From: a virus
Reading direction: 5' to 3' (one strand)
Length of the DNA: 64,000 nt
Virus record (IMG/VR): IMGVR_UViG_3300042446_000849
Coordinates: 1 to 64,000 of that record
Within the stretch, counting starts at the first letter, position 1; every line of letters starts with the position of its first letter. Positions 2,051-42,746 of this stretch are shown here, piece after piece. The translations under genes were made by a program, and so were the position numbers. The notes below the pieces were generated by a model. The model was not told the DNA's origin. It ran no database searches and saw nothing but the letters and a program-made list of their open reading frames with translations.

Positions 2051-2491
2051 TTAGTTGCACCAACTTTGTTTTGCATCTCCATAATATTCTCTAGCAAATC
2101 CGTTTTTAATTAATTCAGACCGCAAACTTGTTCCGTTTAAAATAATATCACCCAAAATTCTACCACCGAACTTGTCCCAGCCGTATAATATAACTTGATG
2201 TTTCTGTGTGCTTGCAATTGCATTTTTTGTAAATGCGCTAGCTGCTTCTCCTCTTTGTTTTTCGGAATCGCATTGTCCTCTGAATCCTTTTTCTGGAGTG
2301 TCGACACCAAAAATACGAACAGCTAATTCAGGCTTTAATGGTGGAGGCAAATATGGTGCAGAAATGACTACAGTGTCACCGTCTGTTGCTCGTATAATTT
2401 TAGCATCATATGTTACTCCTTTGGGAGTCTTTTGTGCATAAGCTAAAGATGCACAACATAAAAATGTGAGTGTTAGTAATAATTTTTTCAT
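2051..2491 (-). CDS. Secreted thermonuclease (SNase family)
   Basis: A 146-residue micrococcal-nuclease-like protein. The start MKKLLLTLTF at 2491 gives a classic signal peptide (hydrophobic core, probable cleavage after SLAYA), so the product should go to the periplasm or outside. The longer reading from 2533 would bury this signal. The SNase core shows DGDTVVI, then VRIFGVDTPE (with the Arg, Asp and Glu of the active site), and later DKFGGRILGDI with the second active-site Arg. The ATG overlaps the gp43 stop as ATGA, so it is translationally coupled to the polymerase. Why a phage should export a nuclease is open: candidates are degrading incoming competitor DNA, scavenging nucleotides, or weakening the host during lysis. 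Confidence 0.85.
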   Translation of the reverse strand: MKKLLLTLTFLCCASLAYAQKTPKGVTYDAKIIRATDGDTVVISAPYLPPPLKPELAVRIFGVDTPEKGFRGQCDSEKQRGEAASAFTKNAIASTQKHQVILYGWDKFGGRILGDIILNGTSLRSELIKNGFAREYYGDAKQSWCN

Positions 2492-4980
2492 CCGAATAAT
2501 CCTTCTAAAGTTGCTTGCGGCTTTGCCGACCAACCAATACCATCTAAAATTGTGTTCATGGGTTCCAAGAATGATTTCTCAAACATTGTCTCATAATCAG
2601 CATATTTTAATAAATCAAATTCGGCAGGAATGACACTAGTAAAAGCTATACAGTTTTCGCCGATGGTATTTGGTTCTTTTAAATAAATGAATTTGATCTT
2701 ATCGCCTTCTTTGATTCTCTCATATTTTTTACTCAAATCATATTTGTCTAAATAAAAATTATAGAGCAGAGCTCCCCTTACGTGCATAGGGGTTGCTTGT
2801 TTATATATATTTGCCCTGTCAGTATATTTATCTAACCCATTAACACCCCTGGGGAAAGATATGTCTTCAGGTTTCATCTTTCTATATTCTGCTTGAAAGT
2901 TTCTAATATATTCTTGTATCTTATCTTCTGTAGATGTCAGAGCAAGTTTAACAGCTTTTCGCAGACCTTCTCTAATAGGTTCGGGAGTAGATGACCTAAC
3001 AATCTCCAATCCCATAACCTTTAATTTTGGTTCTGCGTATTTTACACCTTCATTATTATAAACATTCAGAGCGTATCGTTTCTTGGCAACCCATACCCCG
3101 GTTTCCGCAATCGCTTCTCGCTTGAAGTAAATCTTTTTATCAAATGCATTAGTATATTCTGCCATTTCATTACAGACTTTGTTCAATACTTCTTGAATCT
3201 TTGCTTCACACACTTGATCCAAAATATCTACAATTTTATCTGGCGATTGATTCTTATAGAACTTCTCAACCAAAGGAGCAAATGTAACATAACAAGAGTC
3301 TGTATCTGAATAAAAGGAATAATTGTAATCTGTTGTACCACATACTTTATTCAAATAAGCATTCAAAGCAACACCGACCTTCTGAATAATATATTGTCCT
3401 GTTAGAGTAATACCTTCAGCAATATTGTCATCATAAAATCTAAAGAATTCATTTGCCATTGCTCCGAATAATGAATTCATCTGAATCTTTCGAGCCATCT
3501 GAAAATTATTATACTTCGAAATCTCTTTTTGCCAAATAGGATCTTTTGTTTCCTCATATTTGGATTGCGCTACCAACATCAATTTTTTATATTGTGTTCG
3601 ATCGTTAAACAATTTCTGAACAATCTCAGGAAATACACCTTGCTTTGTTCTGGTAAAACATCTACCATTTGCCGCCATACAATAATCTTTATTTGTTAGA
3701 TCAGATGTATCCTCTTTGCCTGCAAGAAGATCTTTCATTTGCACATCAAAGTATTTAGAATCTTTAACAAGAGTTTCTGGTGACATATTATATTGCATAA
3801 TAATACTAGGATACAAACTTGTCGCATCAAAAGACACTACCCAATTATATTTGCCTGGTCTTGGTTCTTGCACATACGCACCTGCAATATTTCTACCTGC
3901 CTTGTGCTCTCTCTGATGAACAATAATGTTTTTCTTGAGTAGTTGATTATACAAAATACAATCCCAAGTTCTTACTGCAGAAAAAATATCTACATAATTA
4001 CATTTAGCATCATACGCCATTGTCATAATCAATTCAATAAGACGCATCTTATCTTCAAGTCGATCTACAAGTTCGCAGTCAATGACGTTATACTCTACAA
4101 ACTTTTGCCAATTGCCTTTGTAGAATGCGGTAAAAGAATCAAACTCATCATACGATAATTTTTCTCTGCCCAATTCTACTTTGGCAATGTGATCCAATTT
4201 ATATGTTTCTTGCGCAGTATAAGTAAACTTTTTATACAAATCCAAATAGTCAAGAACAGCAATACCTAGAATTTCAAAAGCAACGCTTTCTTTTTTCATT
4301 CTGGTGATTCGTTTTTCGTTAACTACTTTCCAGGGAGAAATTCGTTTTAAATAATCTTCACCCAACATCTTGTAGATTCGATTACACAGATATGGAATAT
4401 CGAAAAATTCCACATTCCAACCTGTAATAATATGAGGGTGATCCTCATTGATATATTCTACAAATTGTTTTAATAGATCAACTTCGTCATCGCAATGAAT
4501 GTATGTGTGTCTGTCGTTTACTTTTTCACAAGCATGCACACCAAAAGTAGTTACTCGCTTTGTTTGATAATCTTGAATAGAGATTAGCAGTATCTGTTCT
4601 TGCGGGTTCGTAACATCAGGGAATCCTAGATCGGCAGTGGTCTCAATGTCAATTGTCCAAATATTAATTTGAGAAATGTCAAATTCTACATCGTCTTTAA
4701 AGGCAGAAGATATATATTGATATGCATAGTTTGTGTTGCCGAAAATAGGAAAGTTCTCAACTTCTTTATATCTAGACACATAATCTTTAGCCTCATTGAT
4801 ACTTTCGAATTTAATTTCGCCTAGTGGCTGACCAAAAAGAGATTTATACTTTGATTCGACTGCAGATTTAACGAACAAAGATGGTTTAAACGGCACTTTA
4901 TCTTGTACTTTATGTCCATTATTTACCCCACGTACAAGGATATTGTTTCCGTATTGGTTGACACTAGTATAAAATTTCAT
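2488..4980 (-). CDS. 43: DNA polymerase gp43 (family B)
   Basis: An 830-residue replicative polymerase with proofreading. Exo I is WTIDIETTADLG (Asp111, Glu113), Exo II is IITGWNVEFFDIPYL, and Exo III is YNVIDCELV. Polymerase motif A is FDATSLYPSI (about 383), motif B is KIQMNSLFGAMANE (about 500), and motif C is YSDTDSCY (about 560); KKRYALNV follows. Slightly shorter than T4 gp43 (898). The C terminus ends in ATLEGLFG, which fits a sliding-clamp binding tail for gp45. An early-type promoter lies upstream (5013-5041), and the secreted nuclease is coupled behind it. Confidence 0.97.
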   Translation of the reverse strand: MKFYTSVNQYGNNILVRGVNNGHKVQDKVPFKPSLFVKSAVESKYKSLFGQPLGEIKFESINEAKDYVSRYKEVENFPIFGNTNYAYQYISSAFKDDVEFDISQINIWTIDIETTADLGFPDVTNPQEQILLISIQDYQTKRVTTFGVHACEKVNDRHTYIHCDDEVDLLKQFVEYINEDHPHIITGWNVEFFDIPYLCNRIYKMLGEDYLKRISPWKVVNEKRITRMKKESVAFEILGIAVLDYLDLYKKFTYTAQETYKLDHIAKVELGREKLSYDEFDSFTAFYKGNWQKFVEYNVIDCELVDRLEDKMRLIELIMTMAYDAKCNYVDIFSAVRTWDCILYNQLLKKNIIVHQREHKAGRNIAGAYVQEPRPGKYNWVVSFDATSLYPSIIMQYNMSPETLVKDSKYFDVQMKDLLAGKEDTSDLTNKDYCMAANGRCFTRTKQGVFPEIVQKLFNDRTQYKKLMLVAQSKYEETKDPIWQKEISKYNNFQMARKIQMNSLFGAMANEFFRFYDDNIAEGITLTGQYIIQKVGVALNAYLNKVCGTTDYNYSFYSDTDSCYVTFAPLVEKFYKNQSPDKIVDILDQVCEAKIQEVLNKVCNEMAEYTNAFDKKIYFKREAIAETGVWVAKKRYALNVYNNEGVKYAEPKLKVMGLEIVRSSTPEPIREGLRKAVKLALTSTEDKIQEYIRNFQAEYRKMKPEDISFPRGVNGLDKYTDRANIYKQATPMHVRGALLYNFYLDKYDLSKKYERIKEGDKIKFIYLKEPNTIGENCIAFTSVIPAEFDLLKYADYETMFEKSFLEPMNTILDGIGWSAKPQATLEGLFG

Positions 4981-14744: not shown

Positions 14745-15401
14745 TCAAACAATAGAGTCGGGTTCCATTGCAATGAAATACTCAATTGCTTTTGTAGCGT
14801 GTTGGAAGTGAAAAGCTTTCTTCTTTGAAATTGTAACTGTGTATGCGTCAGGGAAAATTTTAAAGTTCTCAACTGCCATATGGCAATCAAAAGAATGCTC
14901 GCTTTTACCAATTACTTTCTTGTAGGTATTTGCTGTGTCGTTTTTCTTATCACCGATAGTTAAAGAAACGTCGTCACCTTTACTGGAGATTGTGATTGTA
15001 GGTGAGCTTGTGATAGCAGCTGCCTTCATAATCATATTAACATCTTCAGATGAGAGTTTAAACTGATAGTGATTATCAATCTCAATGCTCTTGTCAGGTG
15101 CCGCAACAATAACTGTTGGGCTAGAATAGAAGTACTCAAATTTGCCGTTGTCTTTAGAAATGTTTAGGCTCTTATCACCAAACTCAACATTTTGATTTTC
15201 CATTAATGTTAGCAACGCCAACAAAGAGTTCAAATCATATACAGCTACTTCTGTGGGGAAATCTTCTACGACTTCAGCCTTAGCAAAAATGTTTTTTGCT
15301 GTACTAATTGTAGATAAAGTCTTACCTTTGCGAATCATAATATTACTATTAATCGCCGCAAAGTTCTTCAAGATTTGGATTGTTTCATTACTTATTTGCA
15401 T
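14745..15401 (-). CDS. 45: Sliding clamp gp45
   Basis: 218 residues, close to T4 gp45 (228). Matches the phage clamp fold in length, position before gp44/62/regA, and features such as AVYDLNSLLALLTLMEN. A ring of three subunits tethers gp43 to DNA and, in T4, also activates late transcription with gp33/gp55. Several proteins in this window end in a candidate clamp-binding tail. Confidence 0.9.
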   Translation of the reverse strand: MQISNETIQILKNFAAINSNIMIRKGKTLSTISTAKNIFAKAEVVEDFPTEVAVYDLNSLLALLTLMENQNVEFGDKSLNISKDNGKFEYFYSSPTVIVAAPDKSIEIDNHYQFKLSSEDVNMIMKAAAITSSPTITISSKGDDVSLTIGDKKNDTANTYKKVIGKSEHSFDCHMAVENFKIFPDAYTVTISKKKAFHFQHATKAIEYFIAMEPDSIV

Positions 15402-15688
15402 TATTTAGCTCCTTGGGTTTCAATGTCATGTACATATAATAGCATCATTGCGTAGTGTAACACCTTTAGTATGTCTTGTCTATTGCTTCCGGCTTTCTTG
15501 CCGTATCTTTGTGCATACTTCATCACGTTACCGACGGTGAACCCTACACCGTGACCGCTATCAATTATAAATTCTGTTGCTTGGAATTTGTTCAAAGAAT
15601 AATGCTCACCATAAGTAGCATCAATATATTGTTTGAATTCTTTTAACAATTCGCCTTCGTTGTATTTGTAGTTTACTTCTTTCGCCAC
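15401..15688 (-). CDS. DUF3310-like protein
   Basis: 95 residues, GTG start at 15688 with AAGGTGA in front. The C-terminal half, GFTVGNVMKYAQRYGKK and DILKVLHYAMMLL, matches DUF3310 (often annotated as nucleotide-kinase-like in phages). It lies between gp45 and the glycosyltransferase island. The biochemical role is not established. Confidence 0.7.
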   Translation of the reverse strand: MAKEVNYKYNEGELLKEFKQYIDATYGEHYSLNKFQATEFIIDSGHGVGFTVGNVMKYAQRYGKKAGSNRQDILKVLHYAMMLLYVHDIETQGAK

Positions 15689-17718: not shown

Positions 17719-17719
17719 T

Positions 17720-20261: not shown

Positions 20262-20605
20262 TACTTAACACCTTTATATAATTTTACAGAATCTTCTACT
20301 AATGATCTGTTTGTTCTGATTGCATTATCGACCATTAAATTAACTGCTTGCACATAACGAGGTCTTTTAACTTTAAAGCAAATGTCGCACTTGCGTTTTA
20401 AGTCTGCAATTTCCTCATCTGATTTTGCAGCTTGAATTGCATCTTCCAACATCCACATACGGATATGAATAATTGCGAGTTTTTCAATAACTTCGCCTAG
20501 GTTATCTGTTTCAATATATTCAGAGTCAGGAAGATCTCCCTTTGCTAATACATCATGAACAGTTTGTTTAATAATTTGTTCTATGCTCTCACCTAAATTT
20601 GTCAT
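20261..20605 (-). CDS. DUF4254-like helical protein
   Basis: 114 residues from ATG 20605. EKLAIIHIRMWMLEDAI and ADLKRKCDICFKVKRPR resemble DUF4254 proteins, which are often found beside glycosyltransferases. All-helical. It overlaps the dehydratase gene by 17 bases and the following gene by 1. Role unknown. Confidence 0.5.
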   Translation of the reverse strand: MTNLGESIEQIIKQTVHDVLAKGDLPDSEYIETDNLGEVIEKLAIIHIRMWMLEDAIQAAKSDEEIADLKRKCDICFKVKRPRYVQAVNLMVDNAIRTNRSLVEDSVKLYKGVK

Positions 20606-21758: not shown

Positions 21759-22690
21759 ACTAACCCCTTTTCTTTTTTGTACCAATCAATAGTTTGTTTT
21801 AAGCCCTTATCAAAAGTAACTTTAGCTTTCCAGCCGAGGTCTTTTAGCTTAGTGTTATCCATTTTGCGTCTTGGTGTGCCGTTTGGTTTATCTTTGTTCC
21901 AAACAATTTTACCTGTGAAACCCATTTCTTTTTTGAGCTTATTAACGAGATCTTTAATTGTAAGTTCTTCGTCACTACCAACATTAACAAATTCTGCTTT
22001 ATCATAATTTTGCATCAACCAAAAACAAGCATCTGCTAGATCATCTACATATAAAAATTCTCTAGTTGGTGTACCATCACCCCAGCACTCTATGCTATTA
22101 TCCCCTGTCTTCATAGCATTATGCATCTTGGTAATAATACCAGGAATTACGTGACCATGTTCTGGAATAAAATTATCATTAGGCCCATATAAATTTGCAG
22201 GCATACAACTAATAGCATTAAAGCCATATTGACGTCTGTAATACTCACACATTCTTAAACCTGTAATCTTAGCTAATGCATAACCTTCATTAGTTGGTTC
22301 AAGCGGTGCTGTTAATAAGTATTCTTCTTTAATTGGTTGAGGTGTTACCTTAGGGTAAATACAGGCTGAGCCCAAGAACAATAGTTTCTGACAACCATTT
22401 CTATATGCAGAATCAATTACATTAGTTTGAATCTGTAAGTTGTCATAGATAAACTCACCGGGATTTGTCCAGTTCCAGTTAATGCCACCAACTTTAGCTG
22501 CTGCTAAGAAAACAAAGTCTGGTCTTTCTGTACTAAAGAAGTTTTTAACTGCTCGTTGGTCTCGTAAATCTAATTCGCCCTTTGATCTAAGAATTAAATT
22601 AGTATAACCTTCTTCTTTTAATTTTCTTACTATTGCTGATCCAACTAATCCTCTGTGACCAGCAACAAATATTTTGCTATTCTTTTCCAT
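21755..22690 (-). CDS. fcl: GDP-L-fucose synthase / ColC-like epimerase-reductase
   Basis: 311 residues, an extended SDR. The cofactor loop is VAGHRGLVGSA (9-19). FLGSACIYPK and NEGYALAKI give the Ser-Tyr-Lys catalytic set, and FIPEHGHVIPGII is typical of GDP-L-fucose synthase. It converts GDP-4-keto-6-deoxymannose to GDP-L-fucose by epimerisation and reduction. Next to ColD it could instead, or also, act as ColC and make GDP-L-colitose; sequence alone does not decide. Gmd and two fucosyltransferase-like genes are in the same operon. Confidence 0.88.
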   Translation of the reverse strand: MEKNSKIFVAGHRGLVGSAIVRKLKEEGYTNLILRSKGELDLRDQRAVKNFFSTERPDFVFLAAAKVGGINWNWTNPGEFIYDNLQIQTNVIDSAYRNGCQKLLFLGSACIYPKVTPQPIKEEYLLTAPLEPTNEGYALAKITGLRMCEYYRRQYGFNAISCMPANLYGPNDNFIPEHGHVIPGIITKMHNAMKTGDNSIECWGDGTPTREFLYVDDLADACFWLMQNYDKAEFVNVGSDEELTIKDLVNKLKKEMGFTGKIVWNKDKPNGTPRRKMDNTKLKDLGWKAKVTFDKGLKQTIDWYKKEKGLV

Positions 22691-22698
22691 TTTTATTC

Positions 22699-23343
22699 CT
22701 ATCTTAAAGTAAACACATAATCGTGAAGGGATAATTTTTCAGTAAATTTATGAGTATTATCTACAACATCAATTATCTTTTGTATATCATCGTGCCATTC
22801 AACTAAAAGAACTTTCGGTAGATATTTTTCTATGGAAAAGCCTTTAAGGACTTCCAATTCATATCCTTCTACGTCTAATGAAAAAAAGTCTACTGTTGCT
22901 ACATTTAATGATTCTAATATTGAATCTAGTGTTCGTGTAGGAACAACAAATTCATATCTAATTTCCTCTTCATTTAAAGCAGAGGCTTTTGCTGTCCAAT
23001 TTTCATTTTTCCATATAGGAGAAGATTTTACAGAAGTCATTAATCCTGGATCGTCAGAATAAACCCGACGATGCGTCATAGTAATTTCCTTTGCGAGATT
23101 TCCGTGAGAAATTAAAGCAGAATTAAATACTTTAGAGTTGGGTCTATTATCGCGACACACCTCAAATGCTTCGGGGTTAGGTTCTACTAAAATACCTGTC
23201 CAACCTAGTTCTTCTTCGAGGTGCCATGTATTGCTTTGAGTAAAACCGTCAGCGCCGCCCACTTCAATAAAGAATCCATTTCTATAATTTAAATATTTTT
23301 CAACAACTTTGCGATTTACATCTTGGTATGAAGGAGGAAACAT
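22699..23343 (-). CDS. FkbM-family SAM methyltransferase
   Basis: 214 residues from ATG 23343 (MFPPSYQDV, after GAGG; the longer reading uses TTG). FFIEVGGADGFTQSNTWHLE is the SAM-binding start, GILVEPNPEAFEVC the second strand, and FFSLDVEGYELEVLKGF the FkbM signature. FkbM enzymes O-methylate sugars or polyketides. In this place it probably methylates a surface-glycan sugar. Lies between gmd and fcl. Confidence 0.85.
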   Translation of the reverse strand: MFPPSYQDVNRKVVEKYLNYRNGFFIEVGGADGFTQSNTWHLEEELGWTGILVEPNPEAFEVCRDNRPNSKVFNSALISHGNLAKEITMTHRRVYSDDPGLMTSVKSSPIWKNENWTAKASALNEEEIRYEFVVPTRTLDSILESLNVATVDFFSLDVEGYELEVLKGFSIEKYLPKVLLVEWHDDIQKIIDVVDNTHKFTEKLSLHDYVFTLR

Positions 23344-23350
23344 ATTATCC

Positions 23351-24364
23351 TCAAGCAAAATTAATGCACATATCTTCTACAAGAGCATCAAAAGAATGCT
23401 TAGGTGTCCAGCCGAGTACACTCTTGGCCTTTGACGAGTCACCCAATAATGTTTCTACTTCTGCAGGGCGGAAATATTTTTCATCTACGCGAACAATAAT
23501 TTTTCCTGTATGCTCATTAATACCTACTTCATTAAGTCCTTCGCCTTCCCAGCGAATTTTTAATGCAAAATAAGGCGCGCATCTTTCAACAAATTCTTTA
23601 ACTGAATATTGTTCACCTGTAGAAATAACAAAATCGTCAGGGGTATCTTGTTGCAACATTAACCACATTGCTTCAACATAGTCTTTAGCGTGACCCCAAT
23701 CTCGTTTAGCATTCAAATTGCCTAGATATAAACACTCTTGGTTACCTGAGCTAATTGACTCTAAACCATTTACAATTTTCTTAGTTACAAAGTTGTGTCC
23801 ACGACGAGGAGACTCGTGATTAAATAGAATGCCAGAGCAAGCAAACATATTATATGATTCACGATAGTTCTTAACTATCCAATATGCGTAGAGCTTAGCT
23901 ACACCATACGGTGATCTAGGATAAAAGGGAGTTGTTTCTTTTTGCGGAATCTCTTGCACTAAACCATATAGTTCAGAAGTAGATGCTTGATAAATTTTAC
24001 AGGTCTTTTCCATGTTAAGCAATCTAACAGCTTCAAGAATACGCAATGTACCTAAGCCATCAACCATAGCAGTATACTCAGGAGTTTCAAAAGAAACCTT
24101 AACGTGACTTTGAGCTGCAAGATTGTAGATTTCACATGGATTGTGTTTCTTCAATACGTTCATAACAGACAAAGAATCTGTTACATCGCCATAATGAAGA
24201 TGCAGATCTGGATTGTTGTAGATATGGTCAATGCGACCTGTATTGATTGACGAGCTGCGACGGATAATACCGTGAACTTCGTAACCTTTAGACAATAAAA
24301 GTTCTGCTAGATAAGAACCGTCTTGTCCAGTAATGCCTGTAATAAGGGCTACTTTTTTACTCAT
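23351..24364 (-). CDS. gmd: GDP-mannose 4,6-dehydratase
   Basis: 337 residues, short for the family (about 350-370) but complete. The NADP loop is [16 protein letters not shown] (8-23), then [30 protein letters not shown] and [11 protein letters not shown] give the Thr, Glu, Tyr and Lys active-site set, and [16 protein letters not shown] is the GDP-mannose region. It makes GDP-4-keto-6-deoxy-D-mannose, the branch point for GDP-fucose, GDP-perosamine and GDP-colitose. Starts the dideoxy/deoxy-sugar part of the operon. Confidence 0.97.
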
Positions 24365-24365
24365 A

Positions 24366-25205
24366 TTATAATCTCCTAAATAATATATCTTCTTTATAAT
24401 TCAATATCTTATCAATATTGTTTACGGCGGAATTCCACTCGCCTACTTTAAAATATTTATCGTCTGCGATATCCGCTATAAAAACATTAAGTTGTTCTTT
24501 TAACATTAAAGGATTCAAACTATGTTCTATGAATAGATTGGTACAATAAAAGTTCTTTAAATTTTTAGAACAAAATGCAGATGAAATAGCAAAACTGCCA
24601 GCTCCAGATGTTGCTAGGTTTTTTGCCTTTAACATAAAGGAATATGCATCTTGAACAGATAAAAATCTAACATCAATACTATCACCTAATGTCTGATACA
24701 AACAAGGCACTATAGGATTTATATTATCTTCAGCTAGAAAAATTACTTTACCATGAAACAAGTTGTATAATTCCAAATAATATAGTAATGGATTTTGAGT
24801 ATGTGAGTTAGGAAAATGGGTATACAAATCCCCGCTTCTTATATGTACGACACATACATCATCTAACGATTCTATTATTTCATCATGATCAATTTTTAAA
24901 TTTGGTAGAATATATTTTTCACATATTTCTTTTCGTTTAAAATTTAAATCGGTTATATCTACATCGAAATCTTTATCAGGTCCCTCAAAAAAATAAAACC
25001 AATTGTGAGATGATTCGTTTATTTTAAATTCATTGTCCCCAAATGTCAATTCAATAGCATTAATAAATGGATGATCTGGTGACGTAAATTTTACTTTATT
25101 CTTTTCACAGAAATATATTCCATTAGAAATTTGCTGAATATTATTACCAAGCCGCCCAAACCACCTTGGGATAAATGTGTCGTGTACTATTTCGTTAGTG
25201 TGCAT
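24366..25205 (-). CDS. Fucosyltransferase-like protein (GT11/GT23 type)
   Basis: 279 residues. [13 protein letters not shown] at about 16-28 resembles the GRLGNQ motif of alpha-1,2-fucosyltransferases. [10 protein letters not shown] is the HxRxGD donor-binding motif shared by GT11 and GT23. [14 protein letters not shown] near residue 200 stands where these enzymes have their third conserved motif. Second fucosyltransferase candidate of the island, so GDP-fucose or GDP-colitose may be used twice. First gene of the island transcript after a UUCG hairpin. Confidence 0.65.
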
Positions 25206-34488: not shown

Positions 34489-35073
34489 TTAAATATCTTT
34501 TAATAAAAATCCCAATCTATCTCCTGCAGGGCTAGAGTAAAACTCGTCACGCCAAACAGGTATAATAGTATTGGCATTGTGATTAACAAAATCATCATTG
34601 TATCTAAAATGCACTTCAATAATACGGTCACCTATTACTTCTACATTGAACCAGGGATATCGATCTGCAACAGTTTGCAGTATCTCTGGCAATTTAAAGT
34701 CCATATCAATTTTTGTCCAACGACTAAATCTATCTAGGCGCATTGGATCATTTCTAAATCCCTCAACCGCTAGCGTTTGTTTGCCCCAATGGTAATCAAA
34801 ACTTAAATGACGACCAGTAAACACCTCACACCAGAAATAACCATCTGGAATTGAATCTGAATCTAGGTATTGTATTGTTGCGCCTACTGACATCATTTTT
34901 AGATTTACAATAGGGCGCACCACATACTTACCCGGAACAGTGGGTGCTATACCTGCAGGACCACATTCATATCCTAACTTCTTTGATAGAATTAATTTAT
35001 CTATACACCAAAGATCATCTAAGGATATACTGTCAAATACATCTATATCACCAATCTGAAGTACAGCTGTCAT
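34489..35073 (-). CDS. Unrecognised conserved protein
   Basis: 194 residues, mixed alpha/beta. LSKKLGYECGPAGIAPTVPG and KYVVRPIVNLKMMSVGAT look like a nucleotide- or substrate-binding region, with an ATP-grasp-like flavour that I cannot confirm. It sits between the QueD-like gene (8-base gap) and the Bax-inhibitor-like gene, at the end of the deazaguanine island. Function not assigned. Confidence 0.6.
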   Translation of the reverse strand: MTAVLQIGDIDVFDSISLDDLWCIDKLILSKKLGYECGPAGIAPTVPGKYVVRPIVNLKMMSVGATIQYLDSDSIPDGYFWCEVFTGRHLSFDYHWGKQTLAVEGFRNDPMRLDRFSRWTKIDMDFKLPEILQTVADRYPWFNVEVIGDRIIEVHFRYNDDFVNHNANTIIPVWRDEFYSSPAGDRLGFLLKDI

Positions 35074-35080
35074 TTATAAA

Positions 35081-35557
35081 TTATTCAAATTCGTTATCTT
35101 CTCTGTGACCGACTCTCATTGCCATGTTTGCATCTGTTTCTCGTACTTCAACCTTACTGCACCAGACTCGTTCTGCTTCGGCTTTGCCATACATTGGGAG
35201 AAAGATAGTATTAATATACTCATAAAGAAAATCAGAAATCCCCTCACAACCTGTCTTCTCCACTTCTGTAATTTTTGCTAATTTTAATCTGCCTAATTCA
35301 AGCAAATGTTCTCGCATAGGATCATCCTGTGCGACTAATAGAGTATGGTCAAACCAATCCTCTAATTTTTCTTTTAATGGTTTAAGTCCACCAAAATCCA
35401 TACACCAATTACGAGCATCCAATGTGTCACATTCAAATTCAAAATGAAATGATAGTGCATATCCATGAACTAGATTACAATGACTATCAGCTCTCCATTG
35501 TCTGTATGCTACGGGACCTATTTGTTTATATGTTTTTGTTGAGATATATTTTGCCAT
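35081..35557 (-). CDS. queD: 6-carboxytetrahydropterin synthase-like (QueD/PTPS family)
   Basis: 158 residues with the T-fold pattern of QueD. HCNLVHGYALSFHFEFE holds the catalytic Cys27 and the zinc His31. The usual HGH is HGY here, as I recall for the phage and alphaproteobacterial subfamily. WCMDFGGLKPLKEKL and WFDHTLLVAQDDP are the conserved centre; KVEVRETDANMA at the end binds the pterin with its Glu. It converts 7,8-dihydroneopterin triphosphate to 6-carboxytetrahydropterin, the second step to 7-deazaguanine. FolE and QueE are 5-7 kb upstream in the same direction. Confidence 0.85.
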   Translation of the reverse strand: MAKYISTKTYKQIGPVAYRQWRADSHCNLVHGYALSFHFEFECDTLDARNWCMDFGGLKPLKEKLEDWFDHTLLVAQDDPMREHLLELGRLKLAKITEVEKTGCEGISDFLYEYINTIFLPMYGKAEAERVWCSKVEVRETDANMAMRVGHREDNEFE

Positions 35558-35597
35558 CTCTTGCCTCTCTGAGTAAGTTTGATGGCATGCAGAATAT

Positions 35598-36629
35598 TTA
35601 GAGAGGGGTGAATGCCGGAGACCTCTTTGTCATTTTCTGAAAAGCCCTAGAATCATACCAATCGAATAAATCTTCGATAATTTTATCTAAGTTACATTCC
35701 GGCTTCCAAGAAGTTTCAGATTGTAATTTTTCAGAATTTGCAATTAATATTGCAGGATCACCATTACGGCGAGGTGCAACATTGAAAACAATGCCGTTGT
35801 TAATTCTTTCTTGATCTATTAAAAAGGTTTCTGTTTTAACAAATACTTCAAGATTAGAATATCCTTTGACTGAACCTATATTATATATGCCTTTGATATT
35901 ATTCTCAATAGCTAAGATGTGTGCTTTGGCAATATCCGTGACATGAATATAATCTCTGATACAGGTTTTATCTTTTGTCGGATAATCTATACCATACATT
36001 GTAAATGGTTCATCGTTTAGCGCTGCTTCAAAAATTTTAGCAAAAATATGAGTAGCATTTGGTTCTTGACCGTGTGTGCCACCTTCAACCGCACCGCAAG
36101 CATTGAAATATCTAAATGATACATACTGCAAACCATATGCCTTATTGTGCCAATTAAGCATCATCTCAGTCATTAGTTTGGATTCACCATATGGCGATAT
36201 TGGATTAGTATCTGATTTTTCAAATAGCATATGACTTTTTTCAGGGTCGCCATACACCGAAGCACTGCTACTAAAAATGAATTTTGTACCTGGAGAATAT
36301 TTGGTAATATATTCCAAATACTTTGCAGTTTTAGCAACATTATTTTCATAATATTCTATTGGGTCAGACATGCTTGGGCCAACCAAACTAGTACCAGCAC
36401 AATGAATAATTGCATCAGGTATATTATCAGCTATACAGTTTAATGATTTAGTATCAATAAAATCGCATTGAATGAATTCATCATAGTATGATTCTAAGTG
36501 AGAACTAACCCGCCTGTCGACACCAACTACTCTATAGCCTTGTTTCTTAAGTTCAATACAAATAGCGCCACCGATATAACCGGCGGCACCTGTGACTATA
36601 ACTGTTTTAATATTTTGCTGCTGGGACAT
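35598..36629 (-). CDS. galE: UDP-glucose 4-epimerase-like (GalE)
   Basis: 343 residues from ATG 36629, giving VIVTGAAGYIGGAICIEL near the N terminus. FSSSASVYGD and SPYGESKLMTEMM give the Ser-Tyr-Lys set; NPISPYGESK and RDYIHVTDIAKAH are GalE hallmarks. It interconverts UDP-glucose and UDP-galactose (or the N-acetyl forms). It overlaps the end of the GT-B glycosyltransferase by 23 bases, so the two are probably partners in donor supply and transfer inside the deazaguanine island. Confidence 0.88.
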   Translation of the reverse strand: MSQQQNIKTVIVTGAAGYIGGAICIELKKQGYRVVGVDRRVSSHLESYYDEFIQCDFIDTKSLNCIADNIPDAIIHCAGTSLVGPSMSDPIEYYENNVAKTAKYLEYITKYSPGTKFIFSSSASVYGDPEKSHMLFEKSDTNPISPYGESKLMTEMMLNWHNKAYGLQYVSFRYFNACGAVEGGTHGQEPNATHIFAKIFEAALNDEPFTMYGIDYPTKDKTCIRDYIHVTDIAKAHILAIENNIKGIYNIGSVKGYSNLEVFVKTETFLIDQERINNGIVFNVAPRRNGDPAILIANSEKLQSETSWKPECNLDKIIEDLFDWYDSRAFQKMTKRSPAFTPL

Positions 36630-37779
36630 GATCTCTGTAATCCTTACCACCTCGCCACCAATGTGATCCTTCGGCATTGAACATAATATCTATACAACGA
36701 TCAATAGTATTAGATGTCCAAGTAGCTAATTTGCCTAGATTGGCTCGCTCTTGAAACAATAAACTATTTAGTTTAAACACTGCATCATCTTGTGACCATG
36801 GAATGTAAAGACATTCACGATCATTGGCAAATGTTTCAGGGAATGATCTATACGCAGGGTACAAACAATTTGTACCTAGTGCATCTGCTTCTGATGCCGT
36901 ATTACTTACCCAATCTTGTAATGCACAATTAAATAATACTCGGGAATCACCTAACAACTCATAGTATTCATTCTTTTTAAGATTCTCATAGATTTTAAAA
37001 TTATGAGTCTTTTCCAATGCTCGCGCGCGATCCAAATACTTTTGATTGTTACTACGTAAAGGACCGCCTGATAAAACAGCAAATTCTACAGCAGGATTAA
37101 GTGTATGGTATCTTTCAATTAGATCCATAAAGAAATCAGGTTGTTTTTCTTGATCGAATCTTGCCGCAAACACTACACGAAGTTTGCGCTCATTAAAAGG
37201 AATCTGTTTCACTACACGACTGCGAACTTCATCTTTGTCAAATGCCAAACCAGAGATATTAAAGATTGGTGCTTCCCAACCTGCAATTTTCATATGAGCA
37301 ACCATCTCTTCGTTAGATGCAAGTACACCTGTAACAAATTGGTCTGTCATTTTCTCATATAGACCCATCCACTTCTGCATATCCCATACGTGAACGAAAT
37401 CATCTGGATCAATAGATTGTGCAAGGCAACGAACAAATATTCGAGGCTGATACTCATAACTTACTTGATCCATAATATAAGGCAATGCCTCAATACCAGG
37501 AGTAAACATATCTTCAAAAAAGATTGTATCTTCGTATGTAATTTCACCAGCTTTCATCTTCTTAATAAGATTAGCCATCTGTGTCAGCGAATAATAACTA
37601 CGACCGTGTGCATCAAGCACTTGTCCTGTTACAATTGCTTTAGAGTCATCTAAAATATCACCATGAATTACTTCATAATCAATACCTCGGCGCTTAAATG
37701 CTGCCTCACTCCAATGCTGAAGCTGCAAGGTATAACGACCTTCATACGGCTCCAAACCCATATAATATAATTTTCCCAT
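36607..37779 (-). CDS. GT-B glycosyltransferase of the deazaguanine island
   Basis: 390 residues from ATG 37779 (AGGG 8 bases upstream; the longer reading uses TTG). The N-terminal half has GLEPYEGRYTLQLQHWSE and FVHVWDMQKWMGLYEKM. The C-terminal Rossmann half has LRVVFAARFDQEKQPDFF, NEYYELLGDSRVLFNC, and SNTASEADALGTNCLYP, where a Glu lies in the donor-binding position of GT4-type enzymes. Placed between the T-fold-like gene and GalE. Acceptor unknown; modified DNA is a serious candidate from context. Confidence 0.78.
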   Translation of the reverse strand: MGKLYYMGLEPYEGRYTLQLQHWSEAAFKRRGIDYEVIHGDILDDSKAIVTGQVLDAHGRSYYSLTQMANLIKKMKAGEITYEDTIFFEDMFTPGIEALPYIMDQVSYEYQPRIFVRCLAQSIDPDDFVHVWDMQKWMGLYEKMTDQFVTGVLASNEEMVAHMKIAGWEAPIFNISGLAFDKDEVRSRVVKQIPFNERKLRVVFAARFDQEKQPDFFMDLIERYHTLNPAVEFAVLSGGPLRSNNQKYLDRARALEKTHNFKIYENLKKNEYYELLGDSRVLFNCALQDWVSNTASEADALGTNCLYPAYRSFPETFANDRECLYIPWSQDDAVFKLNSLLFQERANLGKLATWTSNTIDRCIDIMFNAEGSHWWRGGKDYRDHVPAAKY

Positions 37780-37781
37780 TA

Positions 37782-38180
37782 TCAATCCCTAGTAAAATAC
37801 ATTCTGCAACCGTTTTCGCCATCTTCTGAGACTTCGATTACATAATCTCGATCAGGCCACTGAGCAATTAATTTTGCGTGTAAATCTTTAGCAATCATCT
37901 CACAAGATTTGTGATTCAATTGCAATGTGTCTTCATTATACCAGCGTTCAATAGTACGCTTTGCTTGTATAAATTCAACATCCCTATCATCATGAAACAC
38001 TTCCATCTCAACACGGAAATGAAAAATGTGTCTATGCAAGTCTGCAAGGAAAGACACATCTAGCCAATGATCATCTGGTTTACCAAAACGCTTTGTTGCT
38101 AATTTCGGATCCGTTGCCGCTGCTGGGTAACGATGAATACCTTCCTTCTGAAAGGTAACAAAAATAAAACTCTTGTTCAT
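37782..38180 (-). CDS. T-fold-like protein of the deazaguanine island
   Basis: 132 residues. LADLHRHIFHFRVEMEVFHDD with several His, HKSCEMIAKDLHAKLI, and YVIEVSEDGENGCRMYF resemble the T-fold topology of QueD (His strand, helix, final strand with Glu), but the catalytic Cys-x3-His is not kept. This is a conserved unnamed protein in aquatic T4-like phages. It may be a divergent pterin or deazaguanine enzyme, or a binding partner. It overlaps the transglycosylase gene by 4 bases. Confidence 0.6.
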   Translation of the reverse strand: MNKSFIFVTFQKEGIHRYPAAATDPKLATKRFGKPDDHWLDVSFLADLHRHIFHFRVEMEVFHDDRDVEFIQAKRTIERWYNEDTLQLNHKSCEMIAKDLHAKLIAQWPDRDYVIEVSEDGENGCRMYFTRD

Positions 38181-39466
38181 GCAAATAAGTCCTCAAGTGT
38201 TGATGGGGCTACCTCGCTAACAGGTTCTGAATCCATAAACCTGCCAACGTTCTTTTCCCAATAAAGAAAATCATCAGTGTTTTTCACATCGAATAATGTT
38301 GAAAATTCGTTCTCACAATTTTTATCTCTGCAGAATCTTAAAAATTCTTCTTTAGAATTCATAAGTGTACTAACATCTAATGTGAAGTTATGCACATTAG
38401 TTAAGATAAATGCAAGTCTGGCTCTCATAACATCTACAAATTTGCCGCCATTTTCAAGATATTCGCCTACAGAAATATTCATTAATTTATGATAATTTTC
38501 TGCGGTATATTCTGTGCCACACACAGCATTAATTTCTGCAACAACTGTTCTATAGATATTTGAAAATGGTCTTCCCATTTTTACAGATGAGCCACCATAA
38601 TCACCGGGATTCTTTTTCTTGCTATGTGAAAAATAAAACAATCCATTATCTAAAGACATAGAATGTGTTGTCGAATCATATGAAATATCAATGCCATCAT
38701 ATAAGCCAGTTTGACTAAACAACAAATATGGCAAGATACGTTTTAATGCACCTACACCCAATACGTGTAGATGAAATGGTCTTTCAAATGGTACAGCATT
38801 AACAAAGAATGCTCGCTTAACATCTTCAAGTGGTCCCATACCTAGAGCAGCTGATCCCATAGCTACACCACCAATACGATGATGTAATTCTTTTGGAATC
38901 TCATCAAGCATTGCCTCGCCCCATAACTTATAAGTTTCTTGACCTGAACCTTGAATAATAACAAACGGTCTGCAAGAACTTTTCATATCATCAAATCTTT
39001 GAATTTGTTCTAATACATTTTTACCAGTTTGTCTAGCATAACTTTCAAAATTTTCCATGTCAACATATCTACGCTTAGTATCAATTTTAGATGACACACC
39101 AGATGCAGATGTAGACTTAACCGGAATCTCATCAAATGCCATTCCTATGTCTGCGTATGTTGCTTGATTCTCAAACACCTTATTACGAGTCTCAGATGTG
39201 TTTGGTAAACCTCTAGTAATAATCTGCAAACCTCCAGAGTCGGCATGAATGTTTTTAATTACTGGTCTAAATTTTTGTAATTTTGCACCAAAGTTCTTTT
39301 CAGTAAAACCATTATACAATAAAGAAAACTGATGATTGTTTTTATTGTGAACAGTTCTGGAAATCATGTCTTTAATCATTTCCAATGTCTCAGGGTCATT
39401 ACATTGTTCTGCACCCAACCTCAGATAAGCGGGACCTGATATAACATATTCTAATTGTCTGCTCAT
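38177..39466 (-). CDS. dpdA: TGT/DpdA-like 7-deazaguanine transglycosylase
   Basis: 429 residues of the queuine tRNA-ribosyltransferase superfamily. HADSGGLQI (74-82) matches the TGT substrate motif DSGGFQ. RIGGVAMGSAALGMG and FHLHVLGVGALKRILPYL correspond to the following TGT barrel strands, and GLYDGIDISYDSTTHS probably holds the nucleophile Asp. I do not see the CxCxxC zinc site of tRNA TGT, which fits phage DpdA proteins that put 7-deazaguanine into DNA. The last residues, STLEDLFA, look like a sliding-clamp tail (compare gp43 ATLEGLFG). FolE, QueD and QueE in the same cluster would supply the base. DNA as target is inference. Confidence 0.75.
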   Translation of the reverse strand: MSRQLEYVISGPAYLRLGAEQCNDPETLEMIKDMISRTVHNKNNHQFSLLYNGFTEKNFGAKLQKFRPVIKNIHADSGGLQIITRGLPNTSETRNKVFENQATYADIGMAFDEIPVKSTSASGVSSKIDTKRRYVDMENFESYARQTGKNVLEQIQRFDDMKSSCRPFVIIQGSGQETYKLWGEAMLDEIPKELHHRIGGVAMGSAALGMGPLEDVKRAFFVNAVPFERPFHLHVLGVGALKRILPYLLFSQTGLYDGIDISYDSTTHSMSLDNGLFYFSHSKKKNPGDYGGSSVKMGRPFSNIYRTVVAEINAVCGTEYTAENYHKLMNISVGEYLENGGKFVDVMRARLAFILTNVHNFTLDVSTLMNSKEEFLRFCRDKNCENEFSTLFDVKNTDDFLYWEKNVGRFMDSEPVSEVAPSTLEDLFA

Positions 39467-40365
39467 AAAAATAAACTTTCTAATGAAGACTTTTGTGTGT
39501 CTCCAGCTTTTTCTGTTAAATTAACTGTAATCTGTTTTAGCTTAGGATTCTTTTGCTTGAACATTCTCATCCAAGTTCCTTTTGCTACTGTATCTTGTTT
39601 AGGCAAGTTCCATATCTCTGATATAAATTTTAGACCAGATGCTGTTCTTTCCCATCTTTGTTCTGCAGTCATTCCGGTTGACCAAGTAGACTTTTCGGGA
39701 GTTGCTTGTTCTTCTTTAAAAATAATGTTATTACAGATAAAAACACCTAGACCGTTTTGAATAAATTCAATACCAAAATTTTGATCTTCACACGGAATTA
39801 GAGTACCATCCGAATTGACAAACTTCTCATCAAAATATATTTCTTTATTGTGATGTTTCTTAATATTCTTAATAATTAGAATACTTGTTTTTGTCATAAA
39901 TGTTGGCCTGAATCTCCATCTAATTTTATCACCTTCAGCGTTTTCTGTCAAGTCCTTTGTGAAAGGCTGATTAGCAGGATTGACAGGTAAAAACATATCT
40001 ACGTCTGCAAGATTCTCAAATGGAATATTTCTGAATGTTTGAACAAAGGTATCATTCGCCCCATACTTTTGACCAGTATAAAGGTATGTGTCGTTGTCAG
40101 CAAAAATGGCATAATCCTCATCCGAATTGTAAAATTCTTTTAAGAGGACATTTCTTGCATCACCTGGAGTTAATACTTTACCTTGGTGTTTGATATATTG
40201 AACACCATCTTCGTATTGTTCTTCTTTGTAATTTTGAGCAAACACTACAGGCTGAAGATCATTTTTCTTAACCCAATCTAATTGCCGTTTGTGTATTTCT
40301 GCACGTCTAGCATTTGTGCTATCAGGGCCGAACCATGATATAATGTAGCATTTCTCAAACTTCAT
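39463..40365 (-). CDS. GT-A glycosyltransferase with clamp-like C terminus
   Basis: 300 residues. KCYIISWFGPDSTNARR opens the fold, DYAIFADNDTYLYTG gives a DxD metal site, and IPCEDQNFGIEF is the acceptor-side acidic motif of GT-A enzymes. The end, KSSLESLFL, matches the candidate clamp-binding tail of gp43 and the DpdA-like protein, directly downstream with a 4-base overlap. It is therefore a candidate DNA glycosyltransferase, comparable in logic to T4 alpha-glucosyltransferase, which has been reported to contact gp45. Substrate not proved. Confidence 0.7.
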   Translation of the reverse strand: MKFEKCYIISWFGPDSTNARRAEIHKRQLDWVKKNDLQPVVFAQNYKEEQYEDGVQYIKHQGKVLTPGDARNVLLKEFYNSDEDYAIFADNDTYLYTGQKYGANDTFVQTFRNIPFENLADVDMFLPVNPANQPFTKDLTENAEGDKIRWRFRPTFMTKTSILIIKNIKKHHNKEIYFDEKFVNSDGTLIPCEDQNFGIEFIQNGLGVFICNNIIFKEEQATPEKSTWSTGMTAEQRWERTASGLKFISEIWNLPKQDTVAKGTWMRMFKQKNPKLKQITVNLTEKAGDTQKSSLESLFL

Positions 40366-40875
40366 TTACTCACCTAGCATTTTAATCAAGTGTTTTGTCT
40401 GATGCATAGCATCGTCAAGAGCATTATGGTAAACGCCTTCTCGTTCGTCAGCAGGAATCCAATTGAATAATGCCTTTACTGTACGATAACATCTATCATC
40501 CCAGCATTTCCATGGTGGTTCTCTGTCTGTAATAAAGTAGGCATTTGATAAAATTGTATTATCAAAGACAGCACCGTTGCCCCAAACAGGCAAACTCTTA
40601 GGACCAAACCATTCCTCAAAATCATCTAATGCTTGATTCAAAGGAATGTTATTACGAGTAAGTTCTCGCAAAGCTTCTTTATTTTGCTCCGACCACCATT
40701 TGATAGTTTCTTTAGAAACATGCATACCTACATCTTTGCAGGTTTTAAGATCAATGGTGCAATAGAAGGTATCTAAAATTTCTTTACCTTCAAATTTTAC
40801 TGCACCAATTGAACAGATAGCGGCATTTGATCTTGTTGACATTGTCTCCAAGTCAACCATTACATTAACTGTCAT
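40366..40875 (-). CDS. DEDDh 3'-5' exonuclease (Rv2179c-like)
   Basis: 169 residues. MVDLETMSTR holds the first Asp and Glu, VWGNGAVFDNTIL the second Asp, and YHNALDDAMHQ the His and last Asp. This is the DnaQ-type exonuclease set, of the small Rv2179c-like group found in phages. It would trim DNA or RNA 3' ends. Located between folE (4-base overlap) and the glycosyltransferase (no gap), so made with the modification genes. Confidence 0.85.
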   Translation of the reverse strand: MTVNVMVDLETMSTRSNAAICSIGAVKFEGKEILDTFYCTIDLKTCKDVGMHVSKETIKWWSEQNKEALRELTRNNIPLNQALDDFEEWFGPKSLPVWGNGAVFDNTILSNAYFITDREPPWKCWDDRCYRTVKALFNWIPADEREGVYHNALDDAMHQTKHLIKMLGE

Positions 40876-41552
40876 TTACATCCTTGTCTTGCAATCTGAT
40901 AAAATTCATTTCTAACTTCTGGGTGATTTTTAAATCCGCCACCTAAACGAACTGTTACTGTAGAACTACCTGTATCTTCAACGCCTCTAGATTTGACACA
41001 ATAGTGTTGTGCATCAATTAATACAGCAACATCTTCAGTATCAAGAATATATTGTAGTGTGTGGAAAATTTGTTCTGTTAGTCGTTCTTGAATCTGTGGT
41101 CGCTTGCTGAAATATTCTACAATACGATTAATTTTAGATAGACCAAGAACTTTGTTCTTCGGAACATAAGCAACAGTTGCTAAACCATCGATAACAACAA
41201 AGTGATGTTCACAATTAGATTGAACATTAACATTGCGCTCAACAACCATTTCATTATATTTCATTTTGTTGTCAACGGTTGTGCATTTAGGGAATGCATC
41301 ATAATCGAGTCCCCAAAAGATTTCGTTAACATACATTTTAGCAACACGTTTAGGAGTCTCATTTAGACTATCGTCATCTAAGTCGAGACCTAATACCTGC
41401 ATAATATGTGCAAAGCTTTTTTCAATTTCCGCAATTTTATCTTTGCGATCCATTGATATTTTAAATGTTGGTGTTTCCACTCCCATTTTAACCAAATGTT
41501 CGTGAACTTGTTGTCCCAATAATGGGTCTGTTTTTGTCTTGTTATATGACAT
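40872..41552 (-). CDS. folE: GTP cyclohydrolase I
   Basis: 226 residues. The zinc site is in SNCEHHFVVIDG and AQHYCVKSRGVEDTGS, and YVPKNKVLGLSKINRIVEYFS is diagnostic. It opens GTP to dihydroneopterin triphosphate, the first step of both folate and 7-deazaguanine synthesis. Near QueD, QueE and a DpdA-like gene, the deazaguanine role is likely. A TATAAATA box (41613) and a small hairpin lie in the gap upstream, so late expression of this half of the cluster is possible. Confidence 0.95.
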   Translation of the reverse strand: MSYNKTKTDPLLGQQVHEHLVKMGVETPTFKISMDRKDKIAEIEKSFAHIMQVLGLDLDDDSLNETPKRVAKMYVNEIFWGLDYDAFPKCTTVDNKMKYNEMVVERNVNVQSNCEHHFVVIDGLATVAYVPKNKVLGLSKINRIVEYFSKRPQIQERLTEQIFHTLQYILDTEDVAVLIDAQHYCVKSRGVEDTGSSTVTVRLGGGFKNHPEVRNEFYQIARQGCK

Positions 41553-41590
41553 TTTGAATCCTTCCTAACTCGGATATGATGATTGAAATT

Positions 41591-41608
41591 TGTTACCTTT
41601 GTGTAACA
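41591..41608 (-). terminator. Small hairpin after queE
   Basis: TGTTAC / GTAACA, 6 bp with a 6-base loop, between the queE stop and the folE start. It has no clear T-run; weak. Confidence 0.3.
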
Positions 41609-41612
41609 TTAT

Positions 41613-41620
41613 TATTTATA
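41613..41620 (-). promoter_or_regulatory. Late promoter box TATAAATA upstream of folE
   Basis: Perfect TATAAATA on the minus strand, directly after the queE stop and 61 bases before the folE ATG. Same box as before the capsid genes. Confidence 0.5.
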
Positions 41621-42469
41621 TTAAGTGCCCCATGCATTTTTAAATAATGGGATTTGTAATCTGTCGGAATATCTCCAACCTTTTTTCATTGCCAATTCTG
41701 CAACACTACGATTGTTCAACGAATACATTTCTTCTGTACCACCACAAGGCATAATATAAACAGCGCCACCGAAACCAGATTTGCGATATTCATTTACTGC
41801 TTGTTCTGCTTCTTCAGCATCTTCTTTAGTTGCAACTACAAATTTAAGATATGTATTACCTAACAATTGATATTGTTGAACAACTTCTGGTCTGATTGCA
41901 TCTTCCCATTTTTCACCGCTAATTGATAATTTAGGGGATACTGAAAATGTTATATTACCATAGTCTCGACCAAACCTTGTCCACTCCTGAAATAAGTATT
42001 CATCAAACTCATCAGTTATAAGTTGTGTACCATTAGTTTCAAAAGTAAGTTCTTTTAGAGCTTGCATCTTAGGATGTTCTAAAAGATCAGGATAAGCTTT
42101 TTGCCAACCCAATAAAGGCTCACCGCCTGTAATTACAAGATGTTCGTCTCGCCATTCCTTGTACGGTAACGTATCAACAATAGCATCGGCAATCGCATCA
42201 GTAGAAAGAACGGGAGACAAATGCTTAAAACGAGGATCCCAAGAAGCATAACTATCACAACCCGTAGACACCAAAGGTAACGATTTATATTCTGTATACT
42301 TAGAAGGGTCAACATTGTTTGCTTCATTGCTAAGTTCTCCTTTAGGCATACCAAAACCTGCACATTTAAAGTTACAACCAAATGTTCTTAAAAACACTGA
42401 GGGTACGCCCATATAGCGACCTTCACCCTGTATGCTATAAAATAATTCTGCAATCTTAATTTTGCTCAT
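41621..42469 (-). CDS. queE: 7-carboxy-7-deazaguanine synthase (QueE, radical SAM)
   Basis: 282 residues from ATG 42469; the longer reading uses TTG. LFYSIQGEGRYMGVPSVFLR is the QueE start. The cluster Cys residues are TFGCNFKC and then, after about 34 residues, TGCDSYASWD, so the usual Cx3CxxC is split by an insertion. LVITGGEPLLGW is the SAM-binding motif; TFETNGTQLI and NITFSVSPKLS follow. It turns 6-carboxytetrahydropterin into 7-carboxy-7-deazaguanine. It overlaps the MazG-like gene by 14 bases. Confidence 0.9.
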   Translation of the reverse strand: MSKIKIAELFYSIQGEGRYMGVPSVFLRTFGCNFKCAGFGMPKGELSNEANNVDPSKYTEYKSLPLVSTGCDSYASWDPRFKHLSPVLSTDAIADAIVDTLPYKEWRDEHLVITGGEPLLGWQKAYPDLLEHPKMQALKELTFETNGTQLITDEFDEYLFQEWTRFGRDYGNITFSVSPKLSISGEKWEDAIRPEVVQQYQLLGNTYLKFVVATKEDAEEAEQAVNEYRKSGFGGAVYIMPCGGTEEMYSLNNRSVAELAMKKGWRYSDRLQIPLFKNAWGT

Positions 42470-42746
42470 ATTCACTTTCAAAAATAGTAGACCATTTCTT
42501 TAGTTTTTCAATTTTAGCCAATTTAGCAACACGCAAATGTTCTAAGTCAACTACACCCATACCGCATAAAATATCTATCATAGCCAGCATGTCACCGAGC
42601 TCTTCTTCTAGATGTTCTCTATTTGTTTTGGGTTTGTTGGGTTTAAAATTGTCAATACCAAAGCGTTCGCATTTGCTAACTGCTTGTATAACTTCAGCAC
42701 ATTCTTCTTGCAGAATGTTAAAGACTTCTTTGATTTTTGTATTCAT
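42456..42746 (-). CDS. MazG-like nucleotide pyrophosphohydrolase
   Basis: 96 residues. NILQEECAEVIQAVSK and HLEEELGDMLAMIDILC hold the paired EExxE/ExxD metal sites of the MazG/dUTPase-2 group. It may hydrolyse (d)NTPs or alarmones; common in T4-like phages. Coupled to QueE, it could remove an unmodified nucleotide or balance GTP, but this is a guess. Confidence 0.82.
   Translation of the reverse strand: MNTKIKEVFNILQEECAEVIQAVSKCERFGIDNFKPNKPKTNREHLEEELGDMLAMIDILCGMGVVDLEHLRVAKLAKIEKLKKWSTIFESEYEQN

Follow-up and report, generated by a model that had tools for sequence, protein, structure and literature searches.

A candidate gene cluster for clamp-coupled synthesis of glycosylated 7-deazaguanine in the DNA of a T4-type phage

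Gene content of the locus

The window analyzed here comprises the first 64,000 bases of the virus record IMGVR_UViG_3300042446_000849, a linear record of 119,376 bases which may be incomplete. The record carries markers of T4-type phages: the DNA polymerase gp43, the sliding clamp gp45, clamp loaders, UvsX, a UvsW-like helicase and a T4-type major head protein. On the minus strand between positions 34489 and 42746, a first-pass annotation had described a tightly packed island of 7-deazaguanine genes, including a transglycosylase of the TGT/DpdA kind (TGT, tRNA-guanine transglycosylase), together with two glycosyltransferases (GT-A and GT-B) and the sugar epimerase GalE, and had proposed a glycosylated 7-deazaguanine in the phage DNA. 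All of these genes were recovered as open reading frames (ORFs) on that strand (Table 1). We consider it likely that the island directs a clamp-coupled synthesis of glycosyl-7-deazaguanine in phage DNA.

The pairs exonuclease/FolE, GT-A/exonuclease, DpdA/GT-A, p132/DpdA and GT-B/p132 overlap or abut by 0-4 bases. GT-B and GalE overlap by 71 bases as listed, and by less if GalE starts internally, which is probably the case. Gaps of 68 and 40 bases separate QueE from FolE and QueD from GalE, respectively; QueE may start at an internal ATG a few codons downstream. The ratio of nonsynonymous to synonymous substitution rates (dN/dS) of the island genes lies between 0.03 and 0.24 where dS was unsaturated (GT-A 0.03, DpdA 0.10, GT-B 0.11; dS of p132 was saturated). 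The tested genes are under purifying selection.

The transglycosylase and the polymerase-type tail

Over 63% of its length, the 429-aa protein shares 35% identity with DpdA2 of Vibrio phage nt-1, on which the description of DpdA2 was based; the family occurs in phage DNA-modification clusters. Full-length matches were obtained to DpdA2 of Synechococcus phage BUCT-ZZ01, ACP17, pf16, X1 and Moby. There was no Pfam match, and the Tgt model matched weakly (8.5e-6). The DSGG motif and D264, the aspartate of YDSTTH within ISYDSTTH, are invariant in nine DpdA2 proteins. From knowledge of the family, we take the aspartates of the two motifs to be equivalent to the catalytic residues of TGT. By its sequence, the protein is a predicted DNA guanine transglycosylase of the DpdA2 family. 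An ordinary tRNA TGT was ruled out by this kinship together with the C-terminal tail.

In T4-type phages the tail of gp43 binds the clamp gp45, as established for RB69 and T4. We scanned every non-overlapping ORF of the record (144) for the pattern [STA]Lxx[LFM]F at most three residues from the end. Exactly three ORFs match, gp43, DpdA and GT-A, each with a tail of the form [ST]LExLF (Table 1), and none of 33,030 internal positions does when treated as an end. The same three kinds of protein, gp43, DpdA and a glycosyltransferase, are the sole matches among 221 ORFs of BUCT-ZZ01 (about 150 of its 156 kb). Its DpdA is 37% identical to that of the window, and its tailed glycosyltransferase is an unrelated GT-B located in the place of GT-A. 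In relatives, all 73 tail matches (791 ORFs) belong to DpdA or the adjoining glycosyltransferase; four relatives have the near-match tails NLESLFA/G, and the end of gp43 is identical in five. In ACP17, X1 and Moby the tail is common to gp43 and DpdA. The other glycosyltransferases of the genome that were checked, including GT-B, lack it. Since DpdA and GT-A carry the tail of the polymerase, both probably dock on gp45 and would act on the DNA behind the replication fork. The alpha-glucosyltransferase of T4 binds gp45 in vitro (PMC13216743).

Two further observations concern tails of other phages. A second kind of DpdA, the PA5oct type, ends in or near a similar hydrophobic tail in L092, L113, L115 and L120, e.g. 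NASTQFSNLFEE, which suggests from the sequences that this type is also clamp-docked. In Sinorhizobium phage Phosso (L230:2989-3861), a GT-A-like relative of the window GT-A has the C-terminal sequence TQLSDLFDFG, which resembles the bacterial beta-clamp motif QLxLF, and the Phosso annotation includes a beta-type sliding clamp.

Glycosyltransferases, p132 and the absence of QueC

The assignment of the two glycosyltransferases beside DpdA held, for GT-A by fold and for GT-B by a Pfam match. Family searches gave no match for GT-A, and its model (pLDDT 75) points to a GT-A fold: the best Foldseek matches are UDP-sugar GT-A enzymes, with LH3 at an E-value of 4e-7 and ColGalT1 and GalNAc-T2 similar, at TM scores of only about 0.4-0.5. 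D90 and D92 of a DND motif (DxD-type) are invariant in eight sequences, and the tail sits in a disordered end (residues 286-300). A match to dianthin-type proteins in a PDB sequence search (E 0.006) was dismissed as chance, being weak, confined to a single short stretch and missing from the 50 listed fold matches. Distant relatives of GT-A adjoin DpdA in L238 and L240 and QueE in L239. GT-B contains a GT4-type domain and an unusual N-terminus, EPxExRYT, conserved in the family alignment; its profile retrieves solved GT-B enzymes (E 2e-5). Neither glycosyltransferase matches the AGT or BGT Pfam families PF11440 and PF09198.

The protein p132 had been noted as a second T-fold-like protein, and its AlphaFold model (pLDDT 93.8) agrees with this. 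The nearest Foldseek match is PTPS/QueD (4ntk; E. coli QueD) with an E-value of 6e-5 and TM scores of 0.68/0.74. Invariant residues are H16, H49, H51, C93 and E119, and we read the histidines, in the order H...HxH, as resembling a T-fold zinc site. Profile comparison with the QueD of the window gave a probability of 3.6%, and the p132 profile found no credible sequence homolog of known structure; the kinship with QueD is therefore argued from the fold.

QueC (PF06508) gave no match in the 119-kb, possibly incomplete record or in ten relatives of up to 222 kb. It was not found in BUCT-ZZ01 or ACP17 either, and Xanthomonas phage X1 gave a sub-threshold match only. The phages pf16, Moby and nt-1 possess QueC, and their clusters contain neither p132 nor GT-B. 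The model is consistent with p132 being a QueD-fold protein in the place of the absent QueC. We presume DpdL to be defined by a QueD-type T-fold and a cluster without QueC, and the p132 cluster fits both. Cellulophaga phage phiST encodes a p132 homolog within its cluster. Cui et al. 2023 (NAR 51:9214) are said to report DpdL as a decarboxylase of 7-carboxy-7-deazaguanine (CDG) in phages with dDG. p132 may be DpdL.

Conservation of the cassette

As the first-pass annotation had proposed, gene order was compared across relatives, and the outcome was positive. Every sufficiently long locus among 42 close relatives (DpdA at 80-100%) keeps the order DpdA-p132-GT-B-GalE. Outside the nearest clade, a GT-B of 454 aa (GTBp) stands in for GT-A. 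According to alignment-based scans, p132 has at least 586 relatives in IMG/VR and GT-B at least 329. Among the best 80 GT-B loci of these, 54 extend at least 4 kb to both sides. They contain p132 in 54/54, DpdA in 53/54 (8 of the DpdA2 and 45 of the PA5oct type), GalE in 47/54 and FolE in 46/54 cases, in loci which are partly redundant and with DpdA types assigned by our own hidden Markov models (HMMs), built from few sequences. QueC was found in 0/54, our HMMs detecting it only in three control phages. Where p132 occurs without GT-B, it mostly stands alongside short, DpdA3-like proteins. Of the two glycosyltransferases, GT-B stays with DpdA, and the second one is exchangeable: either GT-A or a GT-B unrelated to it takes this place.

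A search of bacterial genomes by GT-B similarity alone retrieved 17 loci. Three are closely related and may represent phage contigs within metagenome bins, and 14 are distant (21-29% identity). DpdA is present in 13 of the 14 (weak in L265), and the remaining locus, L254, instead has p132 with QueD, QueE and FolE. A second glycosyltransferase of the GT-A or GTBp kind occurs in 7 of the 14. All five distant loci without p132 show a Vut_1 transporter (YhhQ-type, preQ0-type) just upstream of GT-B, called by Pfam for three (two slightly below the curated cut-off) and by tblastn for the other two. The replacement of p132 by Vut_1 fits an import of the base instead of its synthesis. In loci from alphaproteobacteria (L258:10567-12324, L261:9209-10987, L266:10564-12318), DpdA is followed by a conserved protein of about 586 aa for which Pfam gave no match.

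Several relatives have a phosphoribosyltransferase-like gene in the cassette (L013:6921-7358, L038:6967-7392, L047:5748-6209, L054:8175-8609, L239:3369-3902), annotated as xanthine-guanine phosphoribosyltransferase in BUCT-ZZ01. It could salvage the guanine freed by DpdA exchange. Other inserted genes (L024:7479-8120, L033:6701-7345, L033:7856-8446) appear by eye to be amidotransferase-like and 2-oxoglutarate-oxygenase-like and may add further tailoring.

Further genes of the window

The exonuclease is kept in the cassettes of relatives at 81-98%, with a 44% homolog in the BUCT-ZZ01 cassette. The MazG-like gene has no match in many of the relatives (e.g., absent from L012-L019); in phiST, MazG is found in the same kind of cluster. 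The 194-aa protein probably stands outside the modification system. Both genes were dropped as parts of it, as neither is kept across relatives.

A separate sugar island lies on the minus strand at 15673-25205. It encodes a GDP-mannose dehydratase, a GDP-fucose-synthase-like epimerase, a DegT aminotransferase, an FkbM methyltransferase, a GT2 and a GT10 fucosyltransferase. With its GDP-sugar chemistry, it probably serves a surface or virion glycan. On the plus strand, in a block at about 5-11 kb within otherwise minus-strand surroundings, the ORF 5069-6289 contains low-complexity repeats rich in asparagine, threonine and serine. The region 62001-64000 has a G+C content of 0.52 compared to about 0.35 elsewhere and lies within a long minus-strand ORF (61079-64372).

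Table 1. Genes of the putative modification island, its neighbours and the replication proteins discussed here (window coordinates)
Feature	Position	Strand	Basis
QueE, 7-carboxy-7-deazaguanine synthase	41621..42481	-	phrog_2076 2e-55; TIGR03963/03365 below cut-off
FolE, GTP cyclohydrolase I	40872..41552	-	PF01227 2e-61; NF006824 above cut-off
3'-5' exonuclease, Rv2179c-like	40366..40875	-	PF16473 3e-47
GT-A glycosyltransferase (300 aa), tail SSLESLFL	39463..40365	-	Foldseek, DND motif, tail
Predicted DpdA2-type DNA guanine transglycosylase (429 aa), tail STLEDLFA	38177..39466	-	tblastn to nt-1 DpdA2 2e-45
p132, predicted QueD-fold (T-fold) paralog, 132 aa	37782..38180	-	AlphaFold and Foldseek
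GT-B, GT4-type glycosyltransferase	36607..37785	-	PF00534 6.5e-7, just above cut-off
GalE, UDP-glucose 4-epimerase	35598..36677	-	TIGR01179 290.6 bits (cut-off 262.3)
QueD, 6-carboxytetrahydropterin synthase	35081..35557	-	PF01242 3e-15; phrog_2389 1.5e-41
gp43 DNA polymerase, end QATLEGLFG	2488..4980	-	phrog_262, E = 0
gp45 sliding clamp, proposed docking platform	14745..15401	-	phrog_223 3e-64
MazG-like pyrophosphohydrolase, optional member	42456..42746	-	ORF, identified from sequence
194-aa protein	34489..35073	-	phrog_3577; only in closest relatives

Proposed pathway and alternative explanations

FolE, QueD and QueE are known to convert GTP to CDG, and the pathway proposed here would start with these three steps. 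In the absence of QueC, p132 would process CDG, most likely by decarboxylation, as DpdL reportedly does. Clamp-docked DpdA2 would then, as expected for its family, put the deazaguanine in the place of guanine in replicated DNA. GT-B and GT-A (or GTBp) would move a hexose from a UDP-sugar to the base or to a first sugar. GalE yields UDP-galactose or turns UDP-galactose back into UDP-glucose, and would help to supply one of these as donor. DpdA and GT-A would work on gp45 behind the replication fork, and the modified DNA would be shielded from restriction and other nucleases. In a more specific version, which we regard as rather unlikely, p132 decarboxylates CDG and GT-B bonds the sugar to carbon 7. 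This would give C-glycosidic, possibly disaccharide-bearing 7-deazaguanine DNA. DpdA and the other glycosyltransferase would make it while tethered to the clamp, and it would be present in some bacterial loci as well as in hundreds of jumbo and T4-like phages from the environment.

Several points weigh against the pathway as a whole. After removal of the carboxyl group, there is no obvious oxygen or nitrogen at position 7 as a handle for the sugar. The DNA of nt-1, a DpdA2 phage, carries deazaguanine in traces, about 0.1% of G; another phage with a DpdA2 cluster reaches 15%. That the tail binds the clamp is proposed from its resemblance to the T4-type clamp-binding peptide, and in T4 clamp binding does not determine the share of glucosylation and the beta-glucosyltransferase is not clamp-bound (PMC13216743). 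One distant GT-A relative, in DSL-LC06, is located amid lipopolysaccharide and capsule genes, which means that the GT-A fold family serves other purposes too. The absence of QueC is no proof, because the record may be incomplete. Finally, the glycosylated base is deduced from the genes, and the chemical product is, as the first-pass annotation had already stated, an inference.

Among the alternatives, the one which survives best is that the sugar is joined to the free base or a small precursor first and that DpdA then inserts the glycosylated base. GT-B, which has no clamp tail and is conserved more broadly than the tailed glycosyltransferase, could act off the DNA. The tail of GT-A and GTBp indicates action on DNA, however, and a pocket of the TGT type may be too small for a bulky base. 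We consider this order of events improbable.

A little less probable still is a role of the glycosyltransferases and GalE in a glycan of the surface or the virion, their place next to a deazaguanine cluster being incidental. Glycan genes do occur in phages, this one has its own GDP-sugar island, a GT-A relative stands among capsule genes as mentioned above, and GalE is a general sugar enzyme which is located outside the cassette in BUCT-ZZ01. But GT-A and its GT-B substitute both bear the polymerase-type tail, the glycosyltransferases of the GDP-sugar island do not, and the linkage of GT-B with DpdA spans two DpdA types and bacterial genomes. We reject a surface-glycan role on the common tails and this linkage, to which p132 also belongs; the earlier proposal that these glycosyltransferases are tied to a DNA base is thereby strengthened.

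It is also very unlikely that DpdA inserts a bare or carboxylated deazaguanine while the glycosyltransferases act on another base, e.g., a hydroxymethylated pyrimidine. The DNA glucosyltransferases known so far use 5-hydroxymethyl pyrimidines (PMC13216743), and a protein of the hydroxymethylase family PF00303 is present in 4 of the 10 cassette carriers searched, possibly as ordinary thymidylate synthase. This acceptor was rejected since searches of this record, BUCT-ZZ01, the 222-kb relative and three larger carriers of the cassette yielded no PF00303 member; moreover, GT-B is accompanied by a deazaguanine supply, made or imported, in every locus type seen. The least probable explanation, a cassette giving host tRNA a glycosylated queuosine-like base, could appeal to the glycosylated queuosine of animal tRNA (PMC12518689) and to the weak Tgt match, but phages with DpdA2 clusters have deazaguanines in their DNA, the polymerase-like tail indicates DNA, and the window yielded no tRNA genes.

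Significance and comparison with known systems

If the proposed pathway is correct, one cassette combines the two major ways in which phages camouflage their DNA, namely deazaguanine exchange and base glycosylation. It would suggest a role for glycosyltransferases beside DpdA, allow such DNA to be found from sequence, and offer a testable model of a transglycosylase coupled to the replication clamp. The cassette is common in large environmental phages (hundreds), with BUCT-ZZ01, ACP17, X1, PA5oct, Paride and Phosso as cultured carriers, and may help to explain a possible resistance of such phages to restriction and to defences based on nucleases. In the literature searched (deazaguanine, DpdA, glycosylation), no report of a sugar on a DNA deazaguanine was found, though an earlier mention may exist elsewhere, and none directly on DNA modification in PA5oct-like phages. 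A review on jumbo phages names MIJ3 in a sentence mentioning hypermodified DNA, with the carrier phage unspecified. The first-pass annotation had expected a new type of hypermodified DNA; it is unreported in this literature, and we class it as a combination of two known kinds.

The island resembles the DpdA2 clusters of T4-type phages like nt-1 in the clustering of FolE, QueD, QueE and DpdA2 (Hutinet et al. 2019, PMC6884629; PMC12028318). Unlike the island, nt-1 has QueC and an amidotransferase, and its cluster lacks p132, GT-B, GT-A and GalE. Products of such phages are dPreQ0, dPreQ1, dG+ or dADG, all sugar-free (PMC6884629; PMC12028318). Clusters of preQ0/G+ phages share with the island the grouping of FolE, QueD, QueE and DpdA; QueC was not found here. 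The dDG/dCDG phage phiST likewise has FolE, QueD and QueE without QueC, and its p132 homolog lies in the cluster; it differs by a short transglycosylase of another type and a cluster without glycosyltransferase. Mannosyl- and galactosyl-queuosine of animal tRNA (PMC12518689) also carry a sugar on a 7-deazaguanine derivative, although in tRNA and on the cyclopentene ring, and the genes for synthesis of the queuosine ring were not seen in this phage. The alpha- and beta-glucosyltransferases of T4 are likewise phage-encoded enzymes of DNA glycosylation, the alpha enzyme docking on gp45 (PMC13216743). In T4 the acceptor is 5-hydroxymethylcytosine made at the nucleotide level, whereas here it would be a deazaguanine.

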